The notes under the pieces are model-generated. The model was not told the origin of the DNA. It did no database searches and worked only from the letters and a program-made list of their open reading frames with translations. Source: Lysobacter sp. Root690 (GTDB lineage: Bacteria; Pseudomonadota; Gammaproteobacteria; Xanthomonadales; Xanthomonadaceae). Taken from it: a stretch of DNA of 60,485 bases. Both the position numbers and the translations under genes were made by a program. Shown in pieces: positions 2,667 to 42,671 of this stretch; position 1 is the first letter of the stretch, and each line of letters opens with the position of its first letter. The stretch covers positions 642,807 to 703,291 of the forward strand of contig NZ_LMHM01000013.1 in the NCBI RefSeq assembly GCF_001427785.1. The letters run 5' to 3'.

Positions 2667-3919
2667 CATACGCTGATACGCATGGCGCGGCAGCGGATTT
2701 TCCGGCGCAACCTTTGCCCGCATGGCGCCGCGCCGTCCTCAAGGTCGGCAGCAGTCTTCTGGCTGGATTCGCCGATCAAAGCGGTGGTGGCCTGGACTCG
2801 CGTTATGCCGCCGGGCTGGCGCGCTTCATCGCCGATGCGCGCGCGCAGCAGCGCGAAGTGGTGCTGGTGTCGTCGGGCGCGGTCGCGGCCGGTCGCAGCC
2901 GCATCGAGGCCGGTGGCAACGGCATCGTGTTGCGGCAGGCGCTGGCCTCGCTCGGCCAGGCCTCGCTGATCGCGTTCTGGCAGGGCCTGTCGCCGGTGCC
3001 GGTCGCGCAGGTGCTGCTGACCCACGACGATCTGCGCAATCGCCGCCGTTATCTCAATGCGCGCGCCGCGCTGCGCGAATTGCTGCGGCTGGGCGCGCTG
3101 CCGGTCATCAACGAAAACGACACCGTCGCGGTCGATGAGCTCAAGCTCGGCGACAACGACAACCTCGCCGCCGCGGTGGCGTCGCTGGTCGATGCCGATC
3201 TTCTGCTGATCGCTACCGACATCGGCGGCCTCTACAGCGGTCACCCGCAGCGCGATCCGAACGCGCGGCCGATTTCGCAGGTGGCCGCAGTCACGCCCGA
3301 ATTGCTGCTCGCCGCCAGCGGAGGCGCCGGTACGCTCGGCACCGGCGGCATGCGCACCAAACTCGAAGCCGCGGCGAAAGCCGCGACCGCCGGCGTCGCC
3401 ACCGCATTGTTCTGCGGCCGCGATGCGCTGGTGGTGGCCGCGCTCAGCGAAGGCCGCTTGCACGGCACCTTGGTCGCCGCGCGCACCGATCGTCTGCGCG
3501 CGCGCAAGCAATGGCTGCGACATGCGCCGGCCAACGGCTGTCTGCGCATCGACGCGGGCGCGGTCGCGGCGCTGCACGAGCGCGGCGCCTCGCTGCTGCC
3601 CGGCGGCGTGGTCGCGGTCGAAGGCGAATTCCGCCGCGGCGACGTGGTCGAACTGCGCGCGGCGGGCGAGGGCAGCGCGGTGCTGGCGCGCGGTCTGGTG
3701 CAATACAACTCGGTCGAGGTTGGCCGGCTCAAGGGCCGGCACAGCCGCGATATCGAGGCGCTGATCGGATTCCGCTACGGCGAATCGCTGGTCCACCGCG
3801 ACGATCTGGTGCTGCTCGAGCGCGGCGACACGGCGGCGGCTTCGCCCGGACCGACTCAACCCTTCGACGACGACGCATCCGATGCGCGGATCGCACCGTC
3901 ACAGGAGTTATCGCAATGA
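2663..3919 (+). CDS. proB: Glutamate 5-kinase (with PUA domain)
   Basis: Phosphorylates L-glutamate to gamma-glutamyl phosphate, the committed and proline-inhibited step of proline biosynthesis. The 418-residue protein has an N-terminal amino-acid-kinase domain ([48 protein letters not shown]) and a C-terminal PUA domain of about 80 residues. The start was set at the ATG overlapping the argH stop rather than at earlier in-frame codons lying inside argH. The stop overlaps the proA ATG (ATGA at 3916-3919). The argH-proB-proA order and overlaps argue for one transcript. Confidence 0.95.
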
Positions 3920-5202
3920 GCGGCTACGTACGAGCGTTGGCGGAACGCGCGCGCGCCGCCTCGGCCGTGCTGGCGTCGGTGGACGGCGCGACGCGCCGCC
4001 ACCTGATCCAGTCGATGGCCGCGCAGCTCGACGCCTCAAGCGAACGCGTGCTAGCGGCCAATGCCGAGGACCTGCGCCGCGGCGTCGAGGCGAAGCTCAG
4101 CGATGCGATGCTGGATCGGCTGAAGCTCGATCCGGCGCGGCTGAGCGCGATCGCCAACGCCCTGCGCGAAGTCGCCTCGCAGCCCGATCCGCTCGGCGAA
4201 GTGACCCGTCGCGAGCAACGGCCGAACGGCCTGGTGATCGAACGCCAGCGCGTGCCGCTGGGCCTGATCGCGATGATTTACGAAGCCCGCCCCAACGTCA
4301 CCGCCGACGCCGCGGCGCTTTGCCTGAAGGCCGGCAACGCGGTGCTGCTGCGCGGCGGTTCCGAGGCGCGCGCCAGCAATGCAGCGATTGCCGCTTGCCT
4401 GCATGCGGCCCTGCGCGAACAAGGCCTGCCCGAAGCGGCGGTGTCGCTGATCGAAGACACCGCGCGCGAGCATGTGCTGGAACTGCTGCAGTTGTCCGAC
4501 CTGATCGACCTGGCGATCCCGCGCGGCGGCGAAAGCCTGATCCGCTTCGTCGCCGAGCATGCGCGGGTGCCGGTGATCAAGCATTACAAGGGCGTGTGCC
4601 ATCTGTATGTGGACCGCGCCGCCGATCCCGAACTGGCCTTGAACCTGCTGGTCGACGGCAAAGCCTCGCGTCCTGGCGTGTGCAACGCGCTGGAAACGCT
4701 GCTGGTGCATCGCGATATCGCCGAGACGTTCGTGCCGCGCGCATTGGCGGCGCTGGCCTCGCGCGGTGTCGAGGTACGCGGTTGCGAACGAACGCGCGCG
4801 CTCGCAGGCGCGGCGTCCGCCGCGATCGGCGCGGCCGACGAAGCCGATTACGCCGCCGAGTATCTGGACCTGATCATCGCCGTGCGCGTGGTTGACGATA
4901 TGGAGCAAGCGTTGGCGCATATCGCCCGTTTCGGTTCCGACCACACCGAAGTCATCGCCACCGCCGACTCCGCCACCGCCGAAACCTTCGTACGCCGCAC
5001 CCGCAGCTCCGCGGTAATGGTCAATGCCTCCTCGCGCTTCAACGACGGCGGCCAACTCGGCCTGGGCGCCGAGATCGGCATCTCGACCACGCGTCTGCAC
5101 GCCTACGGCCCGATGGGCGTGGAGTCGTTGACCATCGAGCGCTTCGTGGTGCGCGGGGAAGGGCAGGTGCGGCATGCGGAATCGCTGATGCATCGCGATT
5201 GA
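3916..5202 (+). CDS. proA: Glutamate-5-semialdehyde dehydrogenase (gamma-glutamyl phosphate reductase)
   Basis: NADPH-dependent reduction of gamma-glutamyl phosphate to glutamate semialdehyde, the second step of proline synthesis. The 428-residue aldehyde-dehydrogenase-superfamily protein includes [21 protein letters not shown], the [11 protein letters not shown] segment, the catalytic Cys in [13 protein letters not shown], and a [21 protein letters not shown]-terminal motif. An AGGAG ribosome-binding site at 3902-3906 precedes the ATG that overlaps the proB stop. It is the last gene of the argH-proB-proA unit. Confidence 0.96.
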
Positions 5203-5333
5203 ACAACGGCGGGGCGGTTTCCACCCGCGACTTTTTCCTCACTTTCGTTCTCGCGAACGCAGGTCGCTCTACTCCGGCGAAGCCGAACGTCCAGAGACTT
5301 CCGCTCTTCAATCCAGGTCGCCGCTCTCAAAGT

Positions 5334-5368
5334 CGTCATCCTCGCGAAGGCGGGGATCCAGAGACTTC
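5334..5368 (+). repeat. Dispersed palindromic repeat (TCATCCTCGCGAAGGCGGGGATCCAGAGACTTC type)
   Basis: Matches the widespread proteobacterial intergenic repeat with core CGCGAAGGCGGGGATCCAG. A degenerate partner lies just upstream, around 5272-5301. No transposase is nearby. Confidence 0.5.
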
Positions 5369-5472
5369 AGCGCGTTGCCACGGCAGTCCCGTCGATGCGG
5401 TTGAACCGACCCCCCCAATGAGCAGGCGCCGCCTGCAAACGCACCGCGCGCCTGATCGTGTCGCAATCAGCA

Positions 5473-5499
5473 AAGCCCCACCACTGGTGGGGCTTTTTT
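5473..5499 (+). terminator. Rho-independent terminator
   Basis: AAGCCCCACC / GGTGGGGCTT stem with a 3-nt loop followed by a run of six T. The oriented T tract serves the plus strand, ending the argH-proB-proA transcript about 270 bases after proA. The stem is near-symmetric, so it may work in both directions. Confidence 0.85.
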
Positions 5500-5733
5500 G
5501 TTTTCCGCAGTCGCACTACGGCAAAGGATTGGCAGGGGCCTCGAAAGCGATCGTGCGTTTGTTTCACCGTTCGTCGGCGAAAGCGATTTTTACCCCGGGT
5601 CCGTTGTCCGCATGGACATCATTCACGCGTTACGTCATCTAAGCAGCTGTCGGAGATCTGCTCGGTAGCGGCTATTTTTTACTGTCACGTTACAGACTCA
5701 TCGGAAGACTTCACAACTCGATAGGGAAGCGAC

Positions 5734-6669
5734 ATGCCCCCAGCATTTCAGTCTCACGGGCCCGGAAGGCCCGCTCCCGATGCACGTATCAGCCGCGTCG
5801 GCATGGCATGCCTCGCGTCGGCGCTGTTGGCGCTGGCCGGATGCGCCACGGCGCCAAAGGTCGATCAGATTCCGCAATTTCGCCAAGGCGTGGTGATCGC
5901 GGATCAACAAACCACGCAAGCCTTCGTGGAGATTAATTCGTTCCTGCGCGAACGGCAGATCGACCGGGTGGTGCTGCAGCCATCGATCAGCGAAACCCAG
6001 TTCATCACGGTGCTGGCGCCGGAAGACGTCGAGAAGTGGCATCGCGCCTTCGGACTCATGGACAAGTACGCGCAATCCTTGCAGGCGCTGCTGGACCCGA
6101 AGATCAGGGAGGGGGTGGAACACGAACTCGTCGGCCTGGGAGAAGCGATCGGCACGGTCGGCGACGATCAACTCCCCAGCGGCGTCGCGGCGGGCTTTTC
6201 GACGCTCGGGGGCCTGCTGATACAGATCAAGACGCAGCGTGATGCGATGGCGGCCATACGCAAGGCCGACCCCGGCGTCCAGGCCGTGTTCAAGACCATG
6301 ATGGCCGCGATCGGGGAGGATAAAGACGATGCCATTCGTGGCACGGTTCGAAGTTCCTGGCAGGTCGTCCTGGCTGGCAAGTCCGCACAGTTTCTGCGCG
6401 CCAAGAGCGAGGCCGACAAGCGGGAGATCAGCCTGAGTTTCATCTCCACGCTCGATCAGCGCGATGCGCGCGATCTGTCGCTGGTCTCGTTGCGTCGATC
6501 CCTCGGCCTGCTGGCCGATGCGCACGCGGAGCTGGCGGCCGGGCGCGCCAATGGGGCTCGCGATCTGCTCGCAATCTTGCAGGCGGAGCACGCACGATGG
6601 ACCGAGCGGCAAAAAGAAATCGATAAAGCGCGCATTGAAGAAGCGGCCAAGCACGAGGGAGAATCGTAA
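5734..6669 (+). CDS. Predicted lipoprotein of unknown function
   Basis: A 311-residue protein with an N-terminal export signal ending in a lipobox (LALAGC, then ATAPK), so probably a lipid-anchored envelope protein. The mature part looks mainly alpha-helical, with charged helices near the C-terminus (WTERQKEIDKARIEEAAKHE). AGGGAAG sits just upstream of the ATG at 5734. A second in-frame ATG at 5800 would give a shorter, more typical signal peptide. The stop overlaps the next gene (TAATG at 6667-6671), so the two are probably translated together. I do not recognise the family. Confidence 0.8.
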   Translation: MPPAFQSHGPGRPAPDARISRVGMACLASALLALAGCATAPKVDQIPQFRQGVVIADQQTTQAFVEINSFLRERQIDRVVLQPSISETQFITVLAPEDVEKWHRAFGLMDKYAQSLQALLDPKIREGVEHELVGLGEAIGTVGDDQLPSGVAAGFSTLGGLLIQIKTQRDAMAAIRKADPGVQAVFKTMMAAIGEDKDDAIRGTVRSSWQVVLAGKSAQFLRAKSEADKREISLSFISTLDQRDARDLSLVSLRRSLGLLADAHAELAAGRANGARDLLAILQAEHARWTERQKEIDKARIEEAAKHEGES

Positions 6670-7028
6670 TGAACAACCCCGCAACCAACGCGCCGAAGAT
6701 CAACACGGGCGTAAAGGGTTTGCATAAGGCGTTGGTCGCGCAGCAAGAGGCGTTGATGGATCGCCTGAGCCAGGCGCAATCCGCGGACGAGGCCGATACC
6801 CTGGTCCGCGAAATGCACGAGATCAACTTCCGGGTGATGATCTGCGGCAGCCTGCTGTTCAAGCAGACCAGCGCTCAGATCGACGCGGAGGTGGGAAGCG
6901 TGATCGCGGCGACCACCGATCTTGAGGCGGCCATCGCGACCGCGACCAAGATCAGCGCGTTGATCAAGGCGGTCAGCAAGTTCCTGGGCCTGGTCGATAA
7001 GGTGCTGGACAAGATCAAGCTGGTCTGA
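6669..7028 (+). CDS. Small helical protein, unknown function
   Basis: 119 residues, without a signal peptide. The first half looks like amphipathic helices. The C-terminal half is Ala/Ile/Lys-rich (AAIATATKISALIKAVSKFLGLVDKVLDKIKLV region), suggesting membrane or partner binding. The ATG overlaps the stop of the lipoprotein gene, implying a functional link. A hairpin resembling a terminator follows at 7105-7130. Not recognised by family. Confidence 0.7.
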   Translation: MNNPATNAPKINTGVKGLHKALVAQQEALMDRLSQAQSADEADTLVREMHEINFRVMICGSLLFKQTSAQIDAEVGSVIAATTDLEAAIATATKISALIKAVSKFLGLVDKVLDKIKLV

Positions 7029-7104
7029 AGTCGCAAAGGACGATGCGCTGTATGCAACGACGGCGCTCGGCCCGTGCCGGTGGTTCGCTTGTCGCATCGA
7101 GTCG

Positions 7105-7130
7105 CGCCCGCGCGTCTGGCGGGCGTTTTC
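7105..7130 (+). terminator. Probable rho-independent terminator
   Basis: CGCCCGC / GCGGGCG stem (7105-7111 and 7119-7125) with a 7-nt loop followed by TTTTC. It is placed downstream of the lipoprotein/helical protein pair. Confidence 0.6.
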
Positions 7131-7252
7131 TCATGGTCGTCTTCAGGCGCGAGGCGTCGTGGCGAGAAGCCGACATTCACCCATGCGCACCCAGCGGAAC
7201 ATGCGGGAATGATGACGTATATTCTTCTGGCCTAAGACGATGGGGTTCACTG

Positions 7253-7672
7253 ATGAGCGACACCTTGATCGACTCGCGTTTCGCTGGCGCCGACATCCAA
7301 GCCAAGACCAAAGAAGCCGCCGACGCGGCGGTGCAGGCGCTCGAATCCCTGCACGGGGTGTCTCCCGCAGCCGCGGGCCTGGTCGCGCATGCGGCGGCTG
7401 CTTACTTCGATGGCATCGGCAAGCTCGCCTTGATCAGTCAGGCGATCTTGCTGAAGAAAATGGCCGGCGACGCGCCGCCCGACACAAGCCGGCAGCAGGC
7501 CGTGGAAGACGCGCTGGGCGTGCTAGCCACAAACCACTTCATGGATACGGCTGCCGCCATCGCCGCGGCGATCGGCGCACTGGAAGCCGAATCGGCCCAT
7601 GGCGCCATCGATCAGATCGATCAGAGCATCGCCAAGTACGCCGAGTTGCTGCGCATGCGCGGGGCTGACTGA
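7253..7672 (+). CDS. Small Ala-rich helical protein, unknown function
   Basis: 139 residues, soluble and helix-rich (AADAAVQALESLHGV, TAAAIAAAIGALEAESA). The frame is open further upstream to 7043, but that part crosses the terminator hairpin and has low-quality Arg-rich translation, so the ATG at 7253 was chosen. It lies just before the low-GC island that starts near 7.7 kb. It may belong with the lipoprotein pair upstream, but no family is recognised. Confidence 0.6.
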   Translation: MSDTLIDSRFAGADIQAKTKEAADAAVQALESLHGVSPAAAGLVAHAAAAYFDGIGKLALISQAILLKKMAGDAPPDTSRQQAVEDALGVLATNHFMDTAAAIAAAIGALEAESAHGAIDQIDQSIAKYAELLRMRGAD

Positions 7673-7782
7673 CGCGCTGGGCTGAGTGATCAAAATCCCG
7701 CTGTGAGTTTTTTGCCGGAAGAGTCGGCACGGTGGGATGTCGATAACCGTCGTCACCGTCATTCTTCGCAGATAGCGGGTAA

Positions 7783-7806
7783 GTCCGCTTTCGGCCAGAA
7801 GCGGAC
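7783..7806. repeat. Inverted repeat GTCCGCTT...AAGCGGAC, left flank of the defence island
   Basis: Perfect 8-bp arms (7783-7790 and 7799-7806) around an 8-nt loop. The sequence resembles the common gammaproteobacterial 'TGTCCGCTTTCGG...AGCGGACA' intergenic repeat. A degenerate copy occurs on the other side of the island at 13369-13390. Confidence 0.55.
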
Positions 7807-7952
7807 CCAGTCATTGGTGGTTACGAATCGCCTTCGGACGGCCTGCTGGTGCCCCGAGGCCCGATTGAAAATCTAGGCGGCAAGTGGGCAAGTCGTTCGC
7901 TTCGGCGCAAAATATTGCTTATTCTGTTGGCAACGGGTCTGGGGGCGAGTGC

Positions 7953-10900
7953 ATGGCGACGCTGACGCTGAGGGAAAAGGTTGCCGGGGGCTTTCTTGAC
8001 CAATATCAGCTTGATCGAAAGCACCTGCAAAAGGCCGACAAGGCAAAAGGCATCCCCGGCCTCCGCACAGGAAAAGATCAGTATGGCCAGGCCGTCCTGG
8101 TCAAAGTCTGGCCAAAGGAGAATGCGACCTCAGACGCCGATCTACGTGAGATTTGGCGAAATGAAATGTTGCAGCTACATCGAATTGGTGGCTCTCCCGG
8201 CGCCGGGGACGTAATTGCCGAACTGTTGAATTCCGGCGAAGACACTCAAGGTTTCTACTTGGTGTTGACGACCGGCAGGCGGAGGCCGCTCGGCAGCCTG
8301 TCTAGCGGCGAGCGGCGCCCCGACTGGTTGGAAAATCCGGCCAACGCTTCAAACAAGAACCTACTCTGGCGAAACATCAAGAGACTCGTCCAAGGCCTAG
8401 GCGCCCTCCACGGCCAAGGCTTGCTGCACAGAAATGTTGACCGCTGGGCCGTGCTGACGGATGGAGGCTTCGACCCGGATTTTCAGTTGACGGGCTTCGA
8501 GTGGTCCATCCGCCTCACCGGGATCCAGGGAAACATCCGGCATCCCAAAGGGGCCGCAGTTCAACCCGGAACGGAATCCTTTCTGAAGGACTGGGAGCAG
8601 CTAGGCGAACTCGCTGTCGAGCTTTTTGGACTGAATCGAAAGACCATCGGCAACATCGCAATAGCGAATCACAGTGTCGCTACGGCGTTCGCAGCTGACG
8701 AGATCAAGTTGTTGCGCGAAATGCTTCGCGTGCTGCCAGTCGGTCGCGCCGACGCCGACTACGTCGTCGAGAGAATTGATCTCATCCTTGCAGGCCTCGG
8801 TGCCCGAGCCGCAGGAAAGGGGGGTAAGTACCACCTTGCATTGCTACTCGGCCCACAGAGCGCACTCTCGAGGGCGATTCGGAAGGCGTCTGGAGGCGAA
8901 GCGATCGAACTGGAGGATCTCGACGCACAAATCGCATTCGTTCGCGACGACTTGATTCAGGGCGCTCGCGCCTTTTCGCTGAAGCTCGCAGGGCAACCGG
9001 GCCGATTCAAGATGGTTCTTCAGGGGTCAAAGCTTACGTACCATCTCGAAGACGCCGTCGTTGGAGCAGAGCGAACACCAACCGGGTGGCGCGCGGCCAG
9101 TTGCGACATGGCCGAGACCGGTGGTCCGCAAGCGAATCACGTGATTAGGGACATACAGGTCAACGGGCTGGACATTGAGGTGTCGTCCGCGGTCGGCTTC
9201 GCCAAGAGGTACCGCAACAATTACGCGACTCTGAGCTCCTGGGAGGGGCTCCGCGAGCAGCTTAGTCAATCAGACGAACGCGATGACATCGAGTCTCTGG
9301 TCCGCGCCCTCTGGATGGCCCATTTAGTCGAGTGCCTCTTCGCGTCTTCGGATGCGTTTCCAGTAGAAGTAGTAGCTCAAGGTCAGTTGGCAGGTAAGGC
9401 AGGTGGGGACGCCACCCTCCTTATTAGAGCGCGATCGGACAAGGACCGGGAGACTCTGTCGTCGGCCCTGTTGCTGAATGACGCTCCCGGAAAGCGACTC
9501 TCAGCTGCGCTCACCGAGAACGACGGTACTGAAAGCGGCAACTGGCGCTTGACGGAACTAGGTCAGCTCGGCGATCGGTCACCGACGGATACTGAGTGGA
9601 GATTTATGGGCGAAGCGACCGCCAAGGACGGTAGTCCCGCGTTTGAGTTTGTCGGCGATCGGGCGGCGCCACCTCTCAAAAAGGCGTTCTTTGTTTCGAC
9701 GGAATCATTGGGCAGAGACTTTCAGCTCAAGAGGAGGCTCAAGTATATCTCGGCGCTCGAGACGCACTCTGAACTCGCGCGCATGATCTCGAATCCTCGC
9801 TCGCGCGTGTTCAAGAGCGACGAGTCGATAGCTGCAGACGACGCGTTCCTGAGTTTGGACGAGTCGAAGCAGGCGGCACTTCGGACAATAGTAGAGACAC
9901 TCCCAGTCTTTTTCGTGCAGGGCCCGCCCGGAGTGGGGAAAACAAGGCTGGTTCGAGATCTTGTTCGACGCCGCTTCAAGGACGACCCGTCGACTCGCAT
10001 GCTTCTGTCAGCACAAAGCAACTACGCTGTAGATCATCTTCTCCACGAACTGGAGAAAGTATTGAGCGTCGAAGCCAATATTCCGCCATTGACGATCAGA
10101 TGCAGGGCGAAGGACAAACGGGACGAGACTGGGAAATTCGACGTCGGGTTCCAGGCAAAGAAGATCGCGGAGGACTTTGCCAGGAGCAAGCTGGTTGAAT
10201 GCGTGGACGAGGAGTTGGGGCGTCGGGCTAGTCTCCTGGCAAAGTCATACCAAGTGTCAGCCGCGAACGACGACTCCCCTGACCGATTCAGTCAAAGAGC
10301 ATTCGAGGGTCTTGTTCTCCGATCGGCGAATGCAGTATTCGCTACCACCAACTCCGCCGACCTGGAGCGACTGGTGGAGGAGCGAGGTCAGTTCGATTGG
10401 ACGGTGGTAGAGGAGTCCGCAAAAGCTACCGGAGGCGAACTCCTTGCCCCGATGCTGCTATCCCATCGGCGATTGCTCATCGGTGACCACAAGCAACTCG
10501 CCGCATTCGGCACGGAGCCAATGCTGAGAGTTTTCCAATCGCCGAAGTCTCTGAGAAAAGCTTTGGCTGCTGGCGATTGTCTGATTGGTCGAGCGTTCAG
10601 GAGCCCCGCGATGGACGACCTCTTCGCCTGGATCGAGGAGGCCGACTTCGACGAACAAGAGTTCGCAGACCTGTGTATCGAAGCTAGCCGAGTTCTTTTT
10701 CTTTTTGAGAAGTTCATCGAGGCTGAGCTCGAGAGGCAAAACAAAGAAGCGGCAACGAGCAAGGCGCATCCTATCGCCGCGCGGCTCAACCGCCAGCACC
10801 GAATGCACCCCAGGATCGCGGAGCTTGTCTCAACGGTTTTCTACGAAGATTCGCTAGAGACCGACGAAATACGAAGGAAGCACTTCGAGACTGCTGTGTG

Positions 10901-11540
10901 TCCCATTAGTTCGCTTGACCCCAAACGCTTGCCCGACGCACCAATAGTTTGGATCGACATGCCGTGGGTCCAGGCAACGAAGAACAAGAAGGATGGCGAT
11001 ACCTCGCCAAGATGGAACAATTCCGACGAGCGACTGGCTGTGCTCCACGCGCTTGGATTGCTGTCTTCGACAGCCAACAAAGAGCGTCCTTCTGTAGCGG
11101 TTCTTTCACCGTATACGCAGCAGGTCAAACTGCTTGAAGAAGAGATTCAACGTGCAATTGGAAAGCAGCTTGGCAACCTGAAGGCCTTCGAGAAAGCGGC
11201 GGATGGGACCTGCTACTCGCATACGGTGGACTCCTTCCAAGGCAATGAAGCAGATGCGGTGGTCGTGTCTCTGGTTCGAAACAACTCGCACGGCTCAGTC
11301 AAGCGAGCACTGGGCTTCCTTTCGAATCCGAGACGAATGAATGTGCTTCTGAGCCGTGCTCGATGGCGTCTCATCATCGTGGGCAGTCTTGCCTTCATGC
11401 AATCCGCGGCCGCCATTGCTAAATCCCCTCAGGACGCAGAGGAGATCGCGTTTCTCAGGAAGCTCCTGGCAGTCGTAACGGCCGATGGGTCGACGGTCAG
11501 AGTTGTGCCGTTCGCGGCGCTGCGTGGGGGAAGCGTATGA
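7953..11540 (+). CDS. mkoA: Mokosh type I-like MkoA: kinase-like domain plus SF1 (COG1112/UPF1-like) helicase
   Basis: 1195 residues. The N-terminal ~290 residues have a protein-kinase-like layout: VLVKVW Lys near residue 51, WRNEM helix, LLHRNVDRW catalytic-loop equivalent at 157-165. However, HRD is HRN, and DFG appears as TGF. From about residue 620 there is a superfamily 1 helicase: Walker A GPPGVGKT at 657-664, motif II EESA at 820-823, NRQHRMHP near 948, VDSFQGNEAD from 1092, and motif VI LLSRAR near 1135. A helicase with a kinase domain followed by a PLD nuclease is the gene pair of Mokosh type I anti-phage defence. The ATG at 7953 was chosen over the GTG at 7884 because GGGGGCGAG precedes it. 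The stop overlaps the next ATG. GC content and codon use are clearly lower than the neighbours, suggesting horizontal acquisition. Confidence 0.8.
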   Translation: MATLTLREKVAGGFLDQYQLDRKHLQKADKAKGIPGLRTGKDQYGQAVLVKVWPKENATSDADLREIWRNEMLQLHRIGGSPGAGDVIAELLNSGEDTQGFYLVLTTGRRRPLGSLSSGERRPDWLENPANASNKNLLWRNIKRLVQGLGALHGQGLLHRNVDRWAVLTDGGFDPDFQLTGFEWSIRLTGIQGNIRHPKGAAVQPGTESFLKDWEQLGELAVELFGLNRKTIGNIAIANHSVATAFAADEIKLLREMLRVLPVGRADADYVVERIDLILAGLGARAAGKGGKYHLALLLGPQSALSRAIRKASGGEAIELEDLDAQIAFVRDDLIQGARAFSLKLAGQPGRFKMVLQGSKLTYHLEDAVVGAERTPTGWRAASCDMAETGGPQANHVIRDIQVNGLDIEVSSAVGFAKRYRNNYATLSSWEGLREQLSQSDERDDIESLVRALWMAHLVECLFASSDAFPVEVVAQGQLAGKAGGDATLLIRARSDKDRETLSSALLLNDAPGKRLSAALTENDGTESGNWRLTELGQLGDRSPTDTEWRFMGEATAKDGSPAFEFVGDRAAPPLKKAFFVSTESLGRDFQLKRRLKYISALETHSELARMISNPRSRVFKSDESIAADDAFLSLDESKQAALRTIVETLPVFFVQGPPGVGKTRLVRDLVRRRFKDDPSTRMLLSAQSNYAVDHLLHELEKVLSVEANIPPLTIRCRAKDKRDETGKFDVGFQAKKIAEDFARSKLVECVDEELGRRASLLAKSYQVSAANDDSPDRFSQRAFEGLVLRSANAVFATTNSADLERLVEERGQFDWTVVEESAKATGGELLAPMLLSHRRLLIGDHKQLAAFGTEPMLRVFQSPKSLRKALAAGDCLIGRAFRSPAMDDLFAWIEEADFDEQEFADLCIEASRVLFLFEKFIEAELERQNKEAATSKAHPIAARLNRQHRMHPRIAELVSTVFYEDSLETDEIRRKHFETAVCPISSLDPKRLPDAPIVWIDMPWVQATKNKKDGDTSPRWNNSDERLAVLHALGLLSSTANKERPSVAVLSPYTQQVKLLEEEIQRAIGKQLGNLKAFEKAADGTCYSHTVDSFQGNEADAVVVSLVRNNSHGSVKRALGFLSNPRRMNVLLSRARWRLIIVGSLAFMQSAAAIAKSPQDAEEIAFLRKLLAVVTADGSTVRVVPFAALRGGSV

Positions 11541-13306
11541 GCGTCGTTCTTGTGGCGGTTCCGGTTTTCAAGTATCGCCTCAAGCTCCACTTGGACAAAG
11601 GCCGTCCTTGGAGCGTCGTAGAGCACGTAATCCTCCAGGCACTTGGCGCTAGACCCTGGACTAGCGGCGAGCTCGAAGCAGAATCAAATCTGCCAAGAAG
11701 AGTCGTCATCGAGTCCGTGGTAAGACTCATGCGCGCCGGATGGGTTGAATTTTCGTCGTCGAAGGAGGCGATGAGATTTGCATCCACAGCCCTTGGATTG
11801 GCCGTCGCACATGAGGCGGAGCTTCCGCACGCTCCAAGGAGACTCGTCAGGCCAGTGTCATTCGCTGTGGACTGCGTATCTGGAACGGTCTTCTCAAATC
11901 GCGAGTTGCTTCTTCACGAGGACTACGTGGTTAAGGAGCGGGAGAAGTCCGAAAAGATAGTTCGATTGAATGTCGACCCTGAAAAGATTGGGTATGACGT
12001 TCAACAAGTTCATCGGGTATTGCTTGAGGACGACGAACGTTTTGTGGCCCTCGAATCCTTGGGCGGCCCGCCCTCTCAACGAATCGCGCTTGTCACGGTC
12101 CGAGATGGGCAAGTGGTCGACGGGCTGCCCAGTAGAGAGGTCGCAGCGCTTCGGTCGAAGGTGATCGAAGCCGCGGGGCTGGCCAGTGATCCCGCTGCTG
12201 ATTCAAAGACTGTTGAACAGAAGTCATCAGTGCGGTCGGAACAGGCCGCACCAATGCGCCGGGTTCGATTTGCCAAGACCGACCTAATCTTGGATGGCGA
12301 GCGTCACGAGGCGACAATCAAGCACATCTTGTCGAACGCGGCATCTCGCGTATTCATCCATTCGACCTTCATTCGCGCGGACGTAGTGGAAAAGTTTTTG
12401 CCGGAACTTTCGGAAGCAGTTCGACGAGGGGTACGAGTAGACATGCTCTGGGGGCAGAGTGAGGATCTTGAAGAAGTCGCGACAAGCAGGCGGGCAATCG
12501 AGGCGCTCCGTGCGAACCCTCAGATCGCTGACTTGGGCGATGCGCTGAAGATCCATCCATTCTCAACCGGATCCCATGCGAAAATTCTGATCGCCGACTC
12601 TCGAAAGGGTGGAGGATTTCTAGCAGTTGTTGGATCGTGCAACTGGCTTACCTCTCCATACAAGAGCTATGAGGCTTCGGTCGTCCTTCGGGACCCTCAG
12701 ATTGTGGCCGACGTTGTTGGGGTGCTCGCCAATATCACTCATAGGCACAGTGGAATTTGGTTGGATGTGACTAATGAGTTGATGCGCTTGGCTACCCAGA
12801 TCGCAAAGTTGCCGTCGCCGAAGGGTCCGAATGCGACTGCCTCAGTGGTGATCGGCGCGCATCACAATCGATTCGTGCTGGAAGCGCGAGATTCTGCGAG
12901 GAGTAGAATTTTCGTGACCAGTCATCGTCTTGGGCCGGTCTCGGAGAGCGCGATCATTGCACCTCTCGCAACTGCAGCGTCCGACGGTCAAGTAAAGGGG
13001 AGCGTATTCTTTGGTCGAAACACAGGGGCGGTAAAATACCAGACGCGTAAGCGAATCATTGCGGAGGCTGCGTCCGACGGCGTGATTGTCGAGGTTGTGG
13101 AGTCCCCTCGGCTGCATGCCAAGATTCTCGCTTGGGATTCGGACAGCATGGTCATCTCAAGTCTGAATTGGTTGTCAGCTGATCCAATGAGTTATGTAGA
13201 ACCAGCCGAAGTCGGCATATTTCTTTGCGGAACCGGGTTGGCTGACGCAGTAGTGGATAACTTCACTAGCGCCTGCGAAGCCGCCGAGGTGACTGAATCG
13301 CGGTAA
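11537..13306 (+). CDS. mkoB: Mokosh type I-like MkoB: winged-helix plus tandem PLD (HKD) nuclease
   Basis: 589 residues. A winged-helix-like segment lies near residues 25-75 (VVEHVILQALGARPWTSGEL, then a recognition-like helix and wing). Two phospholipase-D HKD motifs follow: HAKILIAD at 347 with GSCNW downstream, and HAKILAWD at 527 with SSLNW downstream. Paired HKD motifs form one phosphodiesterase active site, here probably a nuclease. The ATG overlaps the mkoA TGA (ATGA at 11537-11540), so the two products are made together. PLD proteins also occur in DISARM (DrmC), but DISARM methylase and helicase partners are absent. Low GC as for mkoA. Confidence 0.82.
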   Translation: MSVVLVAVPVFKYRLKLHLDKGRPWSVVEHVILQALGARPWTSGELEAESNLPRRVVIESVVRLMRAGWVEFSSSKEAMRFASTALGLAVAHEAELPHAPRRLVRPVSFAVDCVSGTVFSNRELLLHEDYVVKEREKSEKIVRLNVDPEKIGYDVQQVHRVLLEDDERFVALESLGGPPSQRIALVTVRDGQVVDGLPSREVAALRSKVIEAAGLASDPAADSKTVEQKSSVRSEQAAPMRRVRFAKTDLILDGERHEATIKHILSNAASRVFIHSTFIRADVVEKFLPELSEAVRRGVRVDMLWGQSEDLEEVATSRRAIEALRANPQIADLGDALKIHPFSTGSHAKILIADSRKGGGFLAVVGSCNWLTSPYKSYEASVVLRDPQIVADVVGVLANITHRHSGIWLDVTNELMRLATQIAKLPSPKGPNATASVVIGAHHNRFVLEARDSARSRIFVTSHRLGPVSESAIIAPLATAASDGQVKGSVFFGRNTGAVKYQTRKRIIAEAASDGVIVEVVESPRLHAKILAWDSDSMVISSLNWLSADPMSYVEPAEVGIFLCGTGLADAVVDNFTSACEAAEVTESR

Positions 13307-13368
13307 AGTGACCCGAAGCCGCCCACGCTAGCTGTTGAAAACAGGGGTCACGCTACTATTTCGCCCAA

Positions 13369-13396
13369 TGTCCGCTTAGGGTCGCAAGCGGCTGCC
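13369..13396. repeat. Degenerate copy of the TGTCCGCTT repeat, right flank of the defence island
   Basis: TGTCCGCTTAGGGTCGCAAGCGG is similar to the inverted repeat at 7783-7806. It is preceded by GGGGTCACGCTACTATTT, a string resembling sequences commonly found beside REP-associated transposases. No transposase gene is present. Confidence 0.4.
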
Positions 13397-13459
13397 CAGG
13401 GCGAAGTAGCGGTCTGGTACTCCCTGTGTAAACCTCTGACGCCCGCGGAAGGGCCTGTC

Positions 13460-14041
13460 CTAGGTAAGCCCTTTATCCGACAGCTGCGCCAAGATGTGCG
13501 CCCGGCAGACTTCCAGGATTTCGTCCGCGAGCGGCGCATCGTCGGGGCAGGACCTCGACAACACCACCGCGCCGATGGCCTGCGCCGTCAGGGCGATCCG
13601 GCGCGCGCGCGCCTTGTCGCTTGCCTTGTCGACCGGCCGCCCCTCGTGGTGGGCTGGACCCGCCAGCTGACGCTCGATCCCGGCGGCGAAGGCCGCCTTG
13701 ACCGATTCCGGCTGACGCGCGGCATCCGCGCATAGCGCAGCCATCGTGCAACCGTCGCCCGGCTTGTCCCGATGCTCTCGGGAGAGGTAGTGCTTCACGA
13801 AGTCCGCCAGATCGACGCCCGTCGCGGCGTCCGCGGACTGCGCCAGACCGCAGCTTGCCGCTTCCGCCATCAGGTCGGTCTTGGAGCCGAAATGTTTGTA
13901 GAAGCCGCCGTGGGTAAATCCGGCGGCCGCCATCAGGTCCGCGACGCCCACGCCGTCGTAACCGCGTTCCCTGAACAGGGTCGACGCGGTTTCGACGATG
14001 TGGGCCCGGTTTGTCTGCGCCTGTGCCTTGGTGACCTTCAT
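13460..14041 (-). CDS. TetR/AcrR-family transcriptional repressor
   Basis: 193 residues with an N-terminal TetR helix-turn-helix (IVETASTLFRERGYDGVGVADLMAAAGFTHGGFYKHFGSKTDL segment in pieces: the turn is GVGVADLMAAAGFTHGGFYKHF) and a helical ligand-binding C-terminus. It is divergent from the OYE-family reductase gene, with 186 bases between starts holding a 47-bp dyad. The arrangement resembles NemR/NemA-type control, where an electrophile-responsive TetR protein represses an ene-reductase. The ligand is inferred from this context only. Confidence 0.9.
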   Translation of the reverse strand: MKVTKAQAQTNRAHIVETASTLFRERGYDGVGVADLMAAAGFTHGGFYKHFGSKTDLMAEAASCGLAQSADAATGVDLADFVKHYLSREHRDKPGDGCTMAALCADAARQPESVKAAFAAGIERQLAGPAHHEGRPVDKASDKARARRIALTAQAIGAVVLSRSCPDDAPLADEILEVCRAHILAQLSDKGLT

Positions 14042-14097
14042 AGCCGATGTCTCTCGATGTCCGCCTGCCAGCGGAAGCCTGGGATTCTACTTCATAG

Positions 14098-14144
14098 ATG
14101 ATGTTCATAATCAAACCATTGACTTCAAAGATTATGATCGTCAT
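14098..14144. promoter_or_regulatory. Probable operator and promoter between tetR-like and OYE genes
   Basis: Imperfect inverted repeat ATGATGTTCATAATC (14098-14112) / GATTATGATCGTCAT (14130-14144), 12 of 15 positions matching. It surrounds a TTGACT -35-like hexamer at 14119-14124. A CATCAT at 14142-14147 could serve as a weak -10 for the OYE gene at 17-bp spacing. The placement suits autorepression and repression of the reductase by the TetR protein. Confidence 0.55.
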
Positions 14145-14227
14145 CATTATTGCCGTTACCAAAAAGACGGCGGCCGGGAACAAGCGCTATCCCTCGGCTC
14201 ATCGACGATCACCATCTCTGACACGAC

Positions 14228-15319
14228 ATGACCAACACGACGCTTTTCCAGCCCTACACACTCGGCCCGTTGACCCTCGCGAACCGCATCGTGATGGCGC
14301 CGCTGACGCGCAACCGCGCCGGCGCCGGCCTGGTGCCCAGCGCGCTGGCCGCTACCTATTACGCGCAGCGCGCCTCGGCCGGTCTGATCATCACCGAGGC
14401 GACGCAGGTCTCCGCCCAGGCCCAGGGCTACCAGGACACTCCCGGCCTGTACACGCAGGACCAGGTCGATGGCTGGCGCAAGGTCACCGACGCCGTCCAC
14501 GCCCGCGGCGGGCGCATCTTCGCGCAGTTGTGGCATGTCGGCCGCGTCTCGCATGTCGATCTGCACGGTGGGATCGCGCCGGTGGCCCCTTCGGCCATCC
14601 GCGCCCACACCAAGACCTTCGTCAACAACGGTTTCGCCGATGTCTCCGAGCCGCGAGCGTTGGAAATCCACGAACTGCCGGGCATCGTCGAGGACTTCCG
14701 CCGGGCGGCCGCCAACGCCATCGCGGCCGGTTTCGATGGAGTGGAAATTCATGGCGCCAACGGCTATCTGCTCGAACAGTTCATCAAGGACGGCGCCAAC
14801 CAGCGCACCGACGCCTACGGTGGCTCCATCGAGAACCGCGCGCGCCTGTTGCTGGAGGTCACCGCCGCGGTGGTCGAGCAGATCGGCGCCGACCGCACCG
14901 GTGTGCGTATCTCGCCGGTATCGCCGGCCGGGGCCATTTCCAGCAGCGACCCGCAGCCGCAGTACGACTACCTCGTCGAACAACTCGATGCGCTGGGTAT
15001 CGTCTACCTGCATGTGGTGGAAGGCGCCACAGGCGGCTCGCGCGACGTGGCGCCGTTCGACTTCGATGGCTTGCGCCGTCGCTTCACGCGCACCTACTTG
15101 GTCAACAACGGTTACGACCTGGAACTGGCTAGCGCCCGCCTGGCCGAGGGCAAGGCAGATCTGTTCGCGTTTGGCCGGGCATTCATCAGCAACCCCGATC
15201 TGGTCGAACGCTTGAAGACCGGCGCGCCGCTTGCGGCCTTGAATCCGGCGACGTTGTACGGAGGTGGCGCCGAGGGCTACATCGACTACCCGGCCTTGAC
15301 CGACGCCCGCGCACAGTAA
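14228..15319 (+). CDS. Old Yellow Enzyme family ene-reductase (NemA-like)
   Basis: 363-residue FMN/NAD(P)H oxidoreductase of the OYE family, likely reducing electron-poor alkenes, N-ethylmaleimide-type or nitro compounds. It has the N-terminal FQPYTLGPLTLANRIVMAPLTRNRA barrel start, the AQLWHVGR strand, the substrate-binding HGANGYLLEQF pair (His and Asn), and TDAYGGS. The C-terminal FMN-phosphate site reads FAFGRAFISNPDL. The gene is divergent from a TetR repressor and followed 109 bases later by another oxidoreductase on the same strand. Exact substrates cannot be told. Confidence 0.92.
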   Translation: MTNTTLFQPYTLGPLTLANRIVMAPLTRNRAGAGLVPSALAATYYAQRASAGLIITEATQVSAQAQGYQDTPGLYTQDQVDGWRKVTDAVHARGGRIFAQLWHVGRVSHVDLHGGIAPVAPSAIRAHTKTFVNNGFADVSEPRALEIHELPGIVEDFRRAAANAIAAGFDGVEIHGANGYLLEQFIKDGANQRTDAYGGSIENRARLLLEVTAAVVEQIGADRTGVRISPVSPAGAISSSDPQPQYDYLVEQLDALGIVYLHVVEGATGGSRDVAPFDFDGLRRRFTRTYLVNNGYDLELASARLAEGKADLFAFGRAFISNPDLVERLKTGAPLAALNPATLYGGGAEGYIDYPALTDARAQ

Positions 15320-15428
15320 GTCTGCTCGCGAGACCGCGATAAAGGCGCTGCGCTCAGCGCCTTCCCAGTTCGACGCCACGACACCGTACTTCGGCCAAGC
15401 CGGACAACCCACCCACAGGCGCATCCCC

Positions 15429-16430
15429 ATGAAAGCCTTCATCATCGATCGGTACGGCAAGAAGGAAACCGGCCGCATCGGCGACATGCCCGAGCCGGAT
15501 CTGCGGGACGATGATGTCCTGATCCAGATCCACGCCGCGGGCGTCAACCCGCTGGACTCCAAGATCAGCAGCGGCGAGTTCAAGCTGATCCTTCCCTATC
15601 GCTTGCCGCTGATTCTGGGCAACGAAGTCGCCGGCACGGTGGTGCGCGTTGGCGCGCGCGTGGATCGATTCAAGCCGGGCGACGAAGTCTATGCACGCCC
15701 CGACGATGATCGCATCGGCGGCTTCGCCGAGTTCATCGCCATCAAGGCATCGTCGCTGGCGCTCAAACCCACGAACCTCAGCATGGTCGAGGCCGCTTCG
15801 CTTCCCATGGCGGCCCTGACGTCCTGGCAGGTGCTGGTCGAAACCGCCAAGCTGAAAACAGGGCAGAAAGTGCTGATTCATGCCGGTTCCGGCGGCGTCG
15901 GCAGCATTGCCATCCAGCTTGCCAAGCACCTTGGCGCTTTTGTCGCCACGACCACGAGCACGGCCAACATCGCCTGGGTGAAGGCCTTGGGCGCGGACGT
16001 CGTAATAGATTACAAGCAGCAGGATTTCGCCACGGTGCTTCGTGACTATGATGTGGTGCTGAACAGTCTGGGCAACGACGAACTGAACAAATCCCTGCAG
16101 ATCCTCAAGCCCGGCGGCCATCTCATTTCCATCTCCGGGCCGCCCACCCCGGCGTTCGCCGCCGCTCGAGGACTGGCGTGGCCGCTCAAGCTGGTGTTGC
16201 GCCTGTTGAGCCGTGGCATCCGCACGAAGGCCAAGCAGAAGAATGTCGAGTACACCTTCGTCTTCATGCGCGCCGACGGCGCGCAGTTGGGTGAGATCAC
16301 TCGCCTCGTCGAATCAGGCGTGATCCACCCGGTCGTCGACAGAGTATTCCCGTTCAAGGATACCCACGAAGCTTTGGCCTACGCGGATGGCGGCCGCGCC
16401 AAAGGCAAGGTGCTGGTGCAAATCAGGTAG
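15429..16430 (+). CDS. MDR-superfamily NAD(P)H oxidoreductase (zeta-crystallin/quinone reductase-like)
   Basis: 333 residues. The N-terminal GroES-like domain includes AAGVNPLDSKI and LGNEVAGTVVRVG. The Rossmann domain has the glycine-rich HAGSGGVGSIAIQLAKHLGA, and DYKQQDF lies after the second strand. Typical zinc ligands are lacking, as in quinone reductases. It is co-directional with the OYE gene and probably under the same TetR-controlled stress response. Substrate unknown. Confidence 0.88.
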   Translation: MKAFIIDRYGKKETGRIGDMPEPDLRDDDVLIQIHAAGVNPLDSKISSGEFKLILPYRLPLILGNEVAGTVVRVGARVDRFKPGDEVYARPDDDRIGGFAEFIAIKASSLALKPTNLSMVEAASLPMAALTSWQVLVETAKLKTGQKVLIHAGSGGVGSIAIQLAKHLGAFVATTTSTANIAWVKALGADVVIDYKQQDFATVLRDYDVVLNSLGNDELNKSLQILKPGGHLISISGPPTPAFAAARGLAWPLKLVLRLLSRGIRTKAKQKNVEYTFVFMRADGAQLGEITRLVESGVIHPVVDRVFPFKDTHEALAYADGGRAKGKVLVQIR

Positions 16431-17065
16431 CTCGCACGCTACCGACGCGCAGATCTCGCAGGCGTTGGGATTGCCTGACCGTTCCAGTCGCCGGCAGAGC
16501 GACGTGAGTACATACAAAGGTGTCCACGTCGGCAAGCGTGCGCTGGCGACCGGCGCACCCAGCGGCATACGCTCGGCGGGTTTCCACTAGCCGCCTGGCC
16601 TCACTTCGCCTTTTCTTCATCATGTCATCGACCTCGGCGTTTTTGCGATCGGTCGCCCCCGTTCCGATTCACGTCGGCAAGGCTGCGGCGTTCAAGTAAA
16701 TAGCGGCCCGAACAACTCGGGCGGCCTGTCCAGGCCGAAGTCCAGCAAGTGACGGTACGGCGGTTCGCAAGCGGGGAAGACATCCCGCGACCGGCGGCGC
16801 TTGTTCGCGCCGCGCTTTATCGATCTGCAAACGTGCTCGGCGATCGCCGGGCATCTGGACATCAACTAGCCGCTGGCGCGCAAGCGCTTACAGGCGTTGC
16901 GCGCACGCCCGCTGACCGCGCTCGAGCACGACGCGATTCACGCGTCAGCCCTTCCTGCGTTGAATGAAAGGTGCGTGCGGCAGCAAGCGTCGACTATTGG
17001 ACTCACTATCCGCCTGTCTTCGCCGCGCACATCGTCGATAGCCATCCGGGTCGCAGGAGAGTGCC
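16431..17065. other. 635-base interval without a convincing gene
   Basis: Only short open frames interrupted by stops are seen, for example FIDLQTCSAIAGHLDIN then a stop near 16870. They might be decayed coding sequence but match no family I know. An AGGAGAG ribosome-binding site for the next gene is at 17055-17061. Confidence 0.4.
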
Positions 17066-17650
17066 ATGAACCGAGTCATCTCGCCGCAGGCGTGGAAGCT
17101 GATAGCGAAAACGCTTGGAGTGGATGAAGCCTGCCTGAGAGCCGTCGCGGTTGTCGAATCGTCCGGCAGCGGATTCATGCGCTCGCCTTCGCAACTTCCC
17201 AAGATCCTTTTCGAAGGCCACGTGTTCCATCGCCAGACCAAGGGACGCTTCGGCGCCAGCCATCCCGGGCTGAGCTACCCACGCTGGGACCGGACCAAGT
17301 ATTCCGGGTCGGTGGCGGGCGAATGGAAGCGGCTCGACGCCGCCATTGCGCTTGACAGCGTCGCCGCCCTGAAGTCCGCGAGCTGGGGCGCGTTCCAGAT
17401 CATGGGTTTCAACTACGCCATGTGCGGATTCGACGATGTCGATGGCTTTGTTGCCGCACACAAGGACAGCGCGGACGCCCAGTTGGCCGCGTTCGCCCGC
17501 TTTATCTCCCGCCCGAGATTCCTCAATGCATTGCGGAACCGGAATTGGGAAGGCTTCGCGGCGGCGTACAACGGGCCGGGTTTCGCGAAGAATCGCTATG
17601 ACACCAAGCTCGCGAATGCCTATGCGCGGTTCGCCAACCCGAACCACTGA
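17066..17650 (+). CDS. N-acetylmuramidase-family peptidoglycan hydrolase (DUF3380-like)
   Basis: 194 residues matching the N-acetylmuramidase domain found in phage endolysins and in bacterial lytic enzymes. The probable catalytic Glu is E31 in VVESSGSGF. Further family features are LPKILFEGHVFHRQTKG, SWGAFQIMGFNY and AAYNGPGF. It presumably cleaves the MurNAc-GlcNAc bond. No signal peptide or membrane anchor is seen, so it needs a separate export or release route. It is followed 65 bases later by an exported membrane protein. No other phage genes are adjacent, so a prophage is not supported. Confidence 0.85.
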   Translation: MNRVISPQAWKLIAKTLGVDEACLRAVAVVESSGSGFMRSPSQLPKILFEGHVFHRQTKGRFGASHPGLSYPRWDRTKYSGSVAGEWKRLDAAIALDSVAALKSASWGAFQIMGFNYAMCGFDDVDGFVAAHKDSADAQLAAFARFISRPRFLNALRNRNWEGFAAAYNGPGFAKNRYDTKLANAYARFANPNH

Positions 17651-17715
17651 CCGCATCGCCCTGGTTGCCGGGGTGTCAGGGAATTCTCCTTCAAGGATTC
17701 GCGCGGATAACGATC

Positions 17716-18996
17716 ATGTCGAACAGGATTTCACATCAGCTCGCTTTCGCGCCTGTACTGGCGCTGGTGTTCTTTTGCGCGACATTCCACCCGGCTTGCG
17801 CGCAGGTCTCCGATACGCGGGGCGTCGCGACATCCACCGGCGCGATTGCGGCCACCACGGAAAATGCAAACTCGGGCAATTCCGCGCCGGCGCCGATAGC
17901 GATCCCGAAAGTGACCGGCGTCGACGAAATCATCGAACTCAACGATATCGCCAGGGTCACGGTGGCGAACTTGAAAGAGTGGTCGGCCACCAACGACCCG
18001 GCCAAGCTCGTTCCTTTCATCGACGGAAGGGCGATTCGCGGCAACTACCCGGAGGAAGTCCACCCGCGTAACGGCCGTCTTTTTTTCCATCTGAAGATCA
18101 AGCCCGAGAACACCGAACTGTGGACGGATCTGCTCGGCGCGCCGGGGAGCATCCAACGGCCGGTCAGATTCAGCGTCGGACTGGAGGATCGTTCGCCGTT
18201 CGAAACCATCTACGACGAACGCAATCCGATCCAGATGGTCATCATCTCTCCCGTGTACGGCGTGATCGCGGCGATCGTTGCTTTGCTCACTCTGGTGCTG
18301 TTCGTCCGGCTGGCGCGCAAGACCAGCATCATTCGCGACCCGGGCTCCGATCCGGCCTGCGGACGGGCCAAGGCCTACAACCTGGGCCGCACCCAGATGG
18401 CGTTCTGGTTCTTTCTTATCTACGTCTCTTACCTGGTGATCTGGCTGGTCACCGACCGGCTCGACACGATCACCGCATCGCTGCTCGGACTGATGGGGAT
18501 CAGCGCCGGCACGGCGTTGAGCGAAGCGTTGATCGATTCCGGCAAGAGCACTGCTCGCCTGGAACAGCGACGCGGGCTGTGGGCGGAACGACAAGCGCTG
18601 GAGCAGACCGTCGCCGACTTGCAATCCAGGCGCGCCGCGCTGGACTTGGGAGCCCCGGGGTCGCCCGACGACCTGGCCCATCGCGACAACCTCGACAAGC
18701 AGATTCAACAGGCGCGAATGCGGATCGCCCAGACCGAGCAGCAGTTGTCATCGCTGGAGTCGACGAAATCGGCGCGGGCGACACGCGGATTTCTTCGCGA
18801 CGTGATGGCCGATCGCCATGGCTACTCCTTCCATCGCTTCCAGATTTTCGCCTGGACGATCGTGCTTGGAATCATGTTCATGTCGTCGGTCTACAACAAC
18901 CTGAGCATGCCGGAATTCAGCGCCACGCTGTTGGGACTGATGGGCTTGAGTTCCGGTACCTATATCGGATTCAAGTTTCCCGAGAAGCAGGAATAG
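17716..18996 (+). CDS. Exported polytopic membrane protein with internally duplicated TM module, unknown function
   Basis: 426 residues starting at the ATG at 17716. The signal peptide ends near HPACAQ (residue 30), and the next ~140 residues form a periplasmic domain. Membrane segments lie near 175-198, 228-247, 252-268, 375-393 and 400-418. A coiled-coil-like charged stretch (about 278-350) sits between two repeats of the same module. The motif LLGLMGISAGT (256-266) recurs as LLGLMGLSSGT (405-415), each after an R-x-Q-x3-W helix start. The gene lies between the muramidase and the helical protein, so a joint envelope role is possible, but the family is not recognised. Confidence 0.8.
   Translation: MSNRISHQLAFAPVLALVFFCATFHPACAQVSDTRGVATSTGAIAATTENANSGNSAPAPIAIPKVTGVDEIIELNDIARVTVANLKEWSATNDPAKLVPFIDGRAIRGNYPEEVHPRNGRLFFHLKIKPENTELWTDLLGAPGSIQRPVRFSVGLEDRSPFETIYDERNPIQMVIISPVYGVIAAIVALLTLVLFVRLARKTSIIRDPGSDPACGRAKAYNLGRTQMAFWFFLIYVSYLVIWLVTDRLDTITASLLGLMGISAGTALSEALIDSGKSTARLEQRRGLWAERQALEQTVADLQSRRAALDLGAPGSPDDLAHRDNLDKQIQQARMRIAQTEQQLSSLESTKSARATRGFLRDVMADRHGYSFHRFQIFAWTIVLGIMFMSSVYNNLSMPEFSATLLGLMGLSSGTYIGFKFPEKQE

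Positions 18997-42594: not shown

Positions 42595-42671
<77 letters not shown>

Follow-up and report, generated by a model that had tools for sequence, protein, structure and literature searches.

Two adjacent genes of Lysobacter sp. Root690, here called mkoA and mkoB, raise the question of what a Mokosh-type anti-phage system does with a kinase-like domain that appears to have lost its catalytic residues. The genes lie in a stretch of 60,485 nucleotides (contig NZ_LMHM01000013.1, positions 642,807 to 703,291), which we refer to as the window. Mokosh type I, consisting of MkoA and MkoB, was reportedly described by Millman et al. in 2022, and a sequence-only reading of the window had proposed a transferred system of this kind, with a kinase-like helicase and a phospholipase D (PLD) partner. 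Our preferred reading, to which we assign a probability of roughly 0.6 with its mechanism included, is that the pair is a transferred two-gene system of the type that PADLOC names Mokosh type I, that it belongs to a sub-lineage with a pseudokinase, and that a helicase sensor would license a PLD nuclease, with predicted protection against phages.

Comparison with the PADLOC profiles assigned both proteins to Mokosh. The mkoA product matched MkoA (PDLC03920) with an E-value of 2.8e-258 and 858.4 bits (residues 14-1174; profile positions 7-1096 of 1112), and the mkoB product matched MkoB (PDLC03922) with an E-value of 3.1e-107 and 358.3 bits (residues 1-577; profile positions 3-600 of 610). The remaining PADLOC families scored far below these for both proteins, and the NCBIfam matches all fell below the family cut-offs. 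The sequence-only reading had named a lack of Mokosh hits as a ground for dropping its type I-like assignment; the search was run, and MkoA and MkoB were by far the best matches, at near full length. A passage of PMC11672841 describes Mokosh type I as a helicase and a PLD nuclease on separate genes, with a serine/threonine kinase domain. The window pair resembles it in having two coupled genes, a COG1112/UPF1-like helicase with an N-terminal domain that belongs to the kinase family by homology, and a separate, adjacent PLD gene. It differs in that the catalytic residues of the kinase are missing from MkoA (the HRD Asp, the catalytic Asn and the DFG Asp) and in that motif II of the helicase reads EE. 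Passages of PMC11672841, PMC11291487 and PMC10952713 do not state catalytic competence of the kinase as defining for Mokosh type I. Judged from its sequence, the pair adds a member to a known family, with coupled genes, helicase and PLD motifs that are intact except for motif II, and a kinase-like domain that is kept after loss of its catalytic residues; its sub-lineage is set apart by the dead kinase, the EE motif II and usually two HKD motifs.

Other homes for the proteins were considered and rejected. DrmC of DISARM matched the PLD protein with an E-value of 5.1e-13 in PADLOC, as compared to 3.1e-107 for MkoB, and with 48.8 bits in NCBIfam, where the cut-off is 133. Any other helicase/PLD system as a better home was likewise excluded by the PADLOC and NCBIfam scores. 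The helicase and PLD parts match MkoC of Mokosh type II at E-values of 2.2e-13 and 3.4e-21, but MkoC is one fused helicase-PLD protein and its model was matched partially, whereas the window has two open reading frames (ORFs) with a 4-nt overlap and a kinase-like domain. The upstream genes at 5734-7672 were rejected as parts of the system, as they have no PADLOC family and the neighbors of plasmid-borne pairs vary from record to record (two of the records compared, L073 and L078, are unannotated).

A midpoint-rooted tree of 28 MkoA proteins is divided by a branch with support of 100/100 into two lineages, namely the lineage of the window and a sister lineage with canonical kinases (n = 7; L082-L087 and L100/L003). 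A tblastn search of plasmids with the window MkoA gave 289 records, of which 36 had at least 80% coverage, all below 60% identity; 17 of these 36 were sampled, in addition to 6 of 18 found with L003, and part of the two-lineage picture stems from the choice of these queries. The nearest relative of the window MkoA in the tree was L032 (41% identity), at a weakly placed join (88/86). The N-terminus of the window MkoA taken singly gave no match to Pfam Pkinase at E ≤ 1, and its kinase homology is thus visible with family profiles only. A profile of 15 relatives (A6) matched the PKR and GCN2 kinases (best E-value 7.6e-10), and hhalign matched the window-lineage domain to the canonical MkoA kinase domain at 98.7% (E-value 2.1e-16). 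Pfam Pkinase matched L082 of the sister lineage with an E-value of 2.3e-31.

The two lineages differ in the catalytic residues of this domain. The HRD Asp and the catalytic-loop Asn were found in 0/23 MkoA proteins of the window lineage and the DFG position reads G-F/Y-E in 23/23, whereas the HRD Asp, the catalytic Asn and D-F/Y-G are each present in 7/7 proteins of the sister lineage. The alpha-F Asp is retained in all 23 window-lineage proteins, and the beta-3 Lys (Arg in the other five) and the alpha-C Glu in 18 each. These counts include L106 and L119, which are outside the overlap, PP2C and tree counts, and also near-copies such as L034/L072/L073 and L038/L079/L080, so that the number of independent events is smaller; L077, whose MkoA ORF lacks the N-terminal part, was left out. 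We conclude that the domain is a predicted pseudokinase in the window lineage, and a single change to this state would fit the tree. The kinase-like N-terminal domain of the sequence-only reading thus stands by homology only, and the apparent loss of its catalytic residues goes beyond what that reading had said of it.

The constraint on the domain suggests that it is being kept, since H159, D213 and G-F/Y-E are invariant in 23/23 proteins and the ratio of nonsynonymous to synonymous substitution rates (dN/dS) is approximately 0.04 for the kinase-like domain of L034/L072 (dN 0.035, dS 0.97). The helicase of the same pair has a ratio of approximately 0.06 (dN 0.060, dS 1.05); this was the only close pair for which dS could be read in every part, dS being saturated in the others. 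It is improbable that the locus is simply a standard Mokosh type I whose kinase domain is vestigial and decays without consequence: such decay would account for the repeated residue loss, which is more pronounced in one sub-group, but not for the invariant residues and the low dN/dS. A domain that is constrained without catalytic residues might also act as a sensor of, or a decoy for, a protein encoded by the phage, such as a phage kinase, whose binding or modifying action would release the helicase-nuclease. The presence of both kinds of MkoA in one genus (L003/L100) would fit this idea, but no partner is known and the helicase is an equally plausible sensor, and we regard it as unlikely. A similarly low probability applies to the domain being an enzyme of another kind, which would modify MkoB, or else a target in the phage or the host, by AMPylation or polyglutamylation. 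For these activities, precedents appear among the reference titles of PMC13174449, and the pocket Lys and Glu are kept in 18/23 proteins, with G-F/Y-E in all 23, despite the lost catalytic residues; both pocket residues are, however, lost in 5/23.

The helicase part of MkoA matched Pfam AAA_11 (E-value 1.4e-25) and AAA_12 (E-value 1.2e-39), and the closest solved structures by profile were SEN1 (E-value 3.8e-42) and UPF1 (E-value 1.5e-40), which agrees with the COG1112/UPF1 group proposed before. The Walker A Lys and the motif VI Arg are present in 23/23 proteins of the window lineage. Motif II is EE in 23/23, as compared to DE in 7/7 proteins of the sister lineage. Passages of PMC11291487 and PMC10740426 presume that Mokosh acts by degradation of RNA or RNA-DNA, which, together with the kinship to UPF1, suggests RNA as the target, although DNA is also possible. 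UPF1-like superfamily 1 (SF1) helicases include DNA enzymes, and SMUBP-2 (E-value 1.6e-37) and DNA2 (E-value 1.2e-30) were among the profile matches. The abstract of PMC10925250 describes a helicase that restrains a nuclease until DNA damage is met, and this idea of a sensor helicase holding back an effector nuclease is what the pair shares with Hachiman (HamAB). It is possible, but somewhat unlikely, that the window system senses damaged or processed DNA instead of RNA, as a Hachiman-like helicase-nuclease; the top matches are the RNA-linked SEN1 and UPF1, which discriminate weakly between substrates. The helicase and nuclease families of Hachiman differ from those of the window pair.

The MkoB protein matched Pfam PLDc_2 (E-value 1.7e-15) in two stretches and has two strict HKD motifs (HxKx4D), as expected from the double-HKD partner of the sequence-only reading. 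A Foldseek search with the weak MkoB model returned phospholipase D folds (best E-value 9.2e-14; template modeling score by query length 0.39). Two strict HKD motifs were found in 19/24 MkoB proteins of the window lineage (17/22 in the first set and 2/2 added later). The winged helix proposed for the N-terminus is probable, on weak signals from Pfam (MarR_2, E-value 0.045; TrmB, E-value 0.089), profile matches to AspA and AdcR (E-values 0.003-0.006) and three helices and a hairpin at residues 27-83 of the low-confidence model.

Table 1. Positions in the window of the mko genes, their domains and motifs, and the surrounding insert
Feature	Position	Strand	Basis
mkoA: pseudokinase and UPF1-like SF1 helicase, 1195 amino acids (aa)	7953..11540	+	PADLOC PDLC03920; Pfam AAA_11/AAA_12; SEN1/UPF1 profile matches
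Kinase-like N-terminal domain, approximately residues 14-300 (bounds approximate)	7992..8852	+	Family-profile match; hhalign
Degenerate catalytic and DFG segments, residues 159-185 (HRN...A; GFE replacing DFG)	8427..8507	+	Motif reading
Walker A GPPGVGKT, residues 657-664	9921..9944	+	Motif reading
Motif II VVEESAK, residues 818-824 (EE, not DE)	10404..10424	+	Motif reading
Second helicase domain (AAA_12), residues 940-1145	10770..11387	+	Pfam
mkoB: N-terminal winged-helix-like region and double-HKD PLD protein, 589 aa	11537..13306	+	PADLOC PDLC03922; PLDc_2; Foldseek
Probable winged helix, residues 27-83	11615..11785	+	Weak Pfam, profile and model signals
First HKD motif HAKILIAD, residues 347-354	12575..12598	+	Strict HxKx4D
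Second HKD motif HAKILAWD, residues 527-534	13115..13138	+	Strict HxKx4D
Stretch unmatched in same-genus genome G003 (171 bp instead), outer bounds approximate	7571..17050		Genome comparison

The two genes are tightly linked in all pairs. We place the start of mkoA at the ATG at 7953, the mechanical ORF beginning at the GTG at 7884; mkoB also starts with ATG, and the ORF coordinates share 4 nt with the stop of mkoA, which corresponds to the ATGA overlap and translational coupling noted earlier. In 29/29 pairs, mkoA and mkoB are adjacent on one strand, and they overlap in 27/29, by exactly 4 nt in 19/29, as counted from mechanical starts. Four loci in which no MkoB-like ORF was found (L041, L042, L051 and L064) were left out of the pair counts. 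The constant adjacency and overlap suggest that MkoA and MkoB probably act together.

From these parts and the constraint on them we infer a series of events, a substrate and protection against phages. MkoA would bind to, and move along, unusual nucleic acid made during infection, which may be RNA, an RNA-DNA hybrid or processed DNA. The pseudokinase domain would dock or hold MkoB, as a docking or allosteric module, and may be nucleotide-bound, since the beta-3 Lys and the alpha-C Glu remain. On recognition, MkoB would cut this nucleic acid, for which each chain could assemble a complete active site from its two HKD motifs. The helicase sensor would thus license the PLD nuclease, and signaling by phosphorylation would not be expected here, although it is possible in the sister lineage.

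Several observations weigh against this reading. The beta-3 Lys and the alpha-C Glu are both gone in 5/23 window-lineage MkoA proteins, and in this sub-group the kinase-like domain evolves faster than the helicase in 2/3 comparisons (identities of 72% versus 83%, 77% versus 82% and 84% versus 85%). A pseudokinase call made from sequence can be mistaken, as some of these proteins catalyze reactions in other ways. One strict HKD motif is missing from 5/24 window-lineage MkoB proteins; the second motif is present with its last Asp replaced in L076, L081 and L102, and the ORF stops ahead of it in L077 and L078. The predicted structure of MkoA is unusable (mean predicted local distance difference test score, pLDDT, 34.1) and the MkoB model is weak (mean pLDDT 51.5). 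Finally, the activities of MkoA and MkoB and the protection against phages are predicted, and in a table of PMC12926258 Mokosh is entered as a system of unknown mechanism.

The sister lineage has the same gene order as the window, MkoA of similar length and matches to the same PADLOC models, which were recorded for L082, L083 and L087; one PADLOC model pair thus merges unlike systems. It differs in the intact HRD, Asn and D-F/Y-G motifs, in the DE motif II and in a shorter MkoB (458-512 aa, as compared to 589 aa), with one strict HKD motif in 4/7 proteins and none in 3/7. A PP2C gene follows mkoB in 3/7 sister loci but in 0/22 loci of the window lineage, based on 0.85-5.5 kb of downstream DNA and a Pfam PP2C or PP2C_2 match above the cut-off. 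The three PP2C genes overlap the end of mkoB (L083:8370-9095, L084:8448-9257 and L086:8388-9173). These three loci are also the ones without an HKD motif in MkoB, and they form a single clade, which suggests one event and not three.

A further architecture was found by searches with the PADLOC MkoA profile, which is neutral with respect to lineage and matched at least 2/385 genomes and, in another gammaproteobacterial order, at least 12/381. Of the 14 matches, four belong to the window lineage (two of them, G662 and G484, being search centers and already known), eight are long NERD-type proteins and two are of other kinds (L121 and L129). The eight long MkoA proteins (L120 and L122-L128; 1655-1719 aa), all from the other gammaproteobacterial order, resemble the window system in the UPF1-like helicase, the kinase-like stretches and the adjoining MkoB with a related N-terminal region. 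They differ in their length and the NERD domain, which was matched together with a kinase in 2/2 proteins scanned by Pfam, and in a MkoB of approximately 470-507 aa, which was found for 7/8 loci and had an HKD motif in 0/7. The one long-type locus scanned with PADLOC matched PDLC03921 for MkoA and PDLC03923 for its neighbor. A table in PMC10952713 lists NERD for Mokosh type I, in agreement with the long form. No canonical MkoA of the 1150-aa type was among the neutral matches in the 385 and 381 genomes, and this sample thus did not yield the canonical type alongside that of the window. At L129:3388-10550, the kinase-like and helicase parts are divided among neighboring ORFs of 683, 276 and 996 aa, with a MkoB-like ORF (407 aa) after them, and this arrangement may represent a split form of the same system. 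By sequence criteria, PADLOC Mokosh type I comprises at least three architectures. We suggest more tentatively that two or more systems of different mechanism share this name, one with an active kinase, in some cases with PP2C, and a reduced or HKD-less PLD protein, the other with a pseudokinase switch, EE and a two-HKD PLD protein, the effector function having perhaps moved between phosphorylation and nuclease.

Close relatives of the window pair are sparsely distributed. The lineage profile at E 1e-60 matched at least 2/397 genomes in the order and at least 4/398 in the phylum, two of the four being partial, and the MkoB model at E 1e-30 matched at least 1/369 genomes of the class; the whole-genome counts are lower bounds, with 2-3 candidates scored per genome. 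A Walker A pattern scan of genome contigs returned at least 24 loci, which matched the helicase only distantly and in part, and a scan of viral contigs at least four loci, one of full length, and among the matches listed neither scan gave further close relatives. The full-length locus, on viral-collection contig L063 (IMGVR_UViG_2848576382_000013, 3404-8858), encodes both proteins of a pseudokinase Mokosh system in full, which points to either a provirus that carries the pair or host DNA that was binned in error. MkoB gave no match to phages at E 1e-5, and a DNA search with one gammaproteobacterial relative, aimed at the experimentally tested E. coli system, found no match in E. coli. On an Acidiphilium plasmid (L077:3501-8387), the N-terminal MkoA match lies upstream of, and outside, the 806-aa ORF, and this pair is probably broken. 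The genes beside the pairs vary, and some pairs adjoin annotated CBASS-type or SIR2 genes. This association, the plasmid homes and the patchy presence (at least 2/397 genomes of the order) make it very unlikely that the system is not defensive and serves RNA processing or the upkeep of an element, even though our literature search found no activity shown for the window lineage.

The base composition and a genome comparison both point to transfer of the pair. The GC content of 7953-13306 is 0.567, well outside the rest of the window (mean 0.662, standard deviation 0.018, minimum 0.619 for 444 windows of the same length at a step of 100, none overlapping the pair), and the GC content at third codon positions is 0.648 for mkoA and 0.586 for mkoB, as compared to 0.756-0.875 for 9 other measured genes. 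This bears out the sharp difference from the neighbors in the sequence-only reading. The same-genus genome G003 is missing approximately 9.5 kb here, which hold the pair as well as genes for a TetR regulator and for two oxidoreductases, one of flavin type and one of zinc type. The match of G003 to the left flank extends to 7176, with one more short match at 7463-7570, and resumes on the right at 17051, with 171 bp in between; for genome G004, the match to the left flank ends at 7668. The block of TetR and the two oxidoreductases (window 13460-16430; L097:4194-8233) has a 91-92% identical copy elsewhere in G004, with no adjoining Mokosh gene, and the insert is therefore a mosaic; as a side reading, this block may have moved or been inserted together with the pair. 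Of 20 genomes of the genus, G000 and G014 have a full-length MkoA; the G014 protein belongs to the other lineage and is located on contig C13, the proA match of that genome being on C16.

The route of insertion is explained neither by border repeats, as no repeat or inverted repeat of note was found at the borders of the insert, nor by a nearby tRNA, the single tRNA being far off at 42595. An Rfam scan of 5000-20000 gave no match. While transfer is thus upheld, the "defence island" of the sequence-only reading is not, since PADLOC found nothing in the four neighboring proteins that it was run on and those of the right-hand genes that have a Pfam name encode oxidoreductases, a muramidase and a peptidase, the right-hand side having been outside the PADLOC scan. 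Small family-less genes (5734, 6669 and approximately 7253) and the muramidase gene (17066), at 5734-7672 and 17066-18996 of the window, are neighbors in G003 and are split here by the Mokosh insert. Further upstream, a short intergenic element at approximately 5245-5386 recurs in the genus as numerous partial copies (72-98% identity among the matches listed), and a strong terminator-like hairpin with 11 pairs and a T-rich tail is located downstream of proA at 5472-5496.

Our search of the open literature, whose coverage excluded subscription papers and most preprints, turned up no account of a Mokosh lineage with a dead kinase. If a whole sub-lineage dispenses with kinase catalysis and yet keeps the domain, the results of experiments on the "kinase of Mokosh" will depend on the lineage used. 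The naturally occurring contrast between active and dead kinases, between two and fewer HKD motifs and between the presence and absence of PP2C would then allow direct tests of the role of each part.

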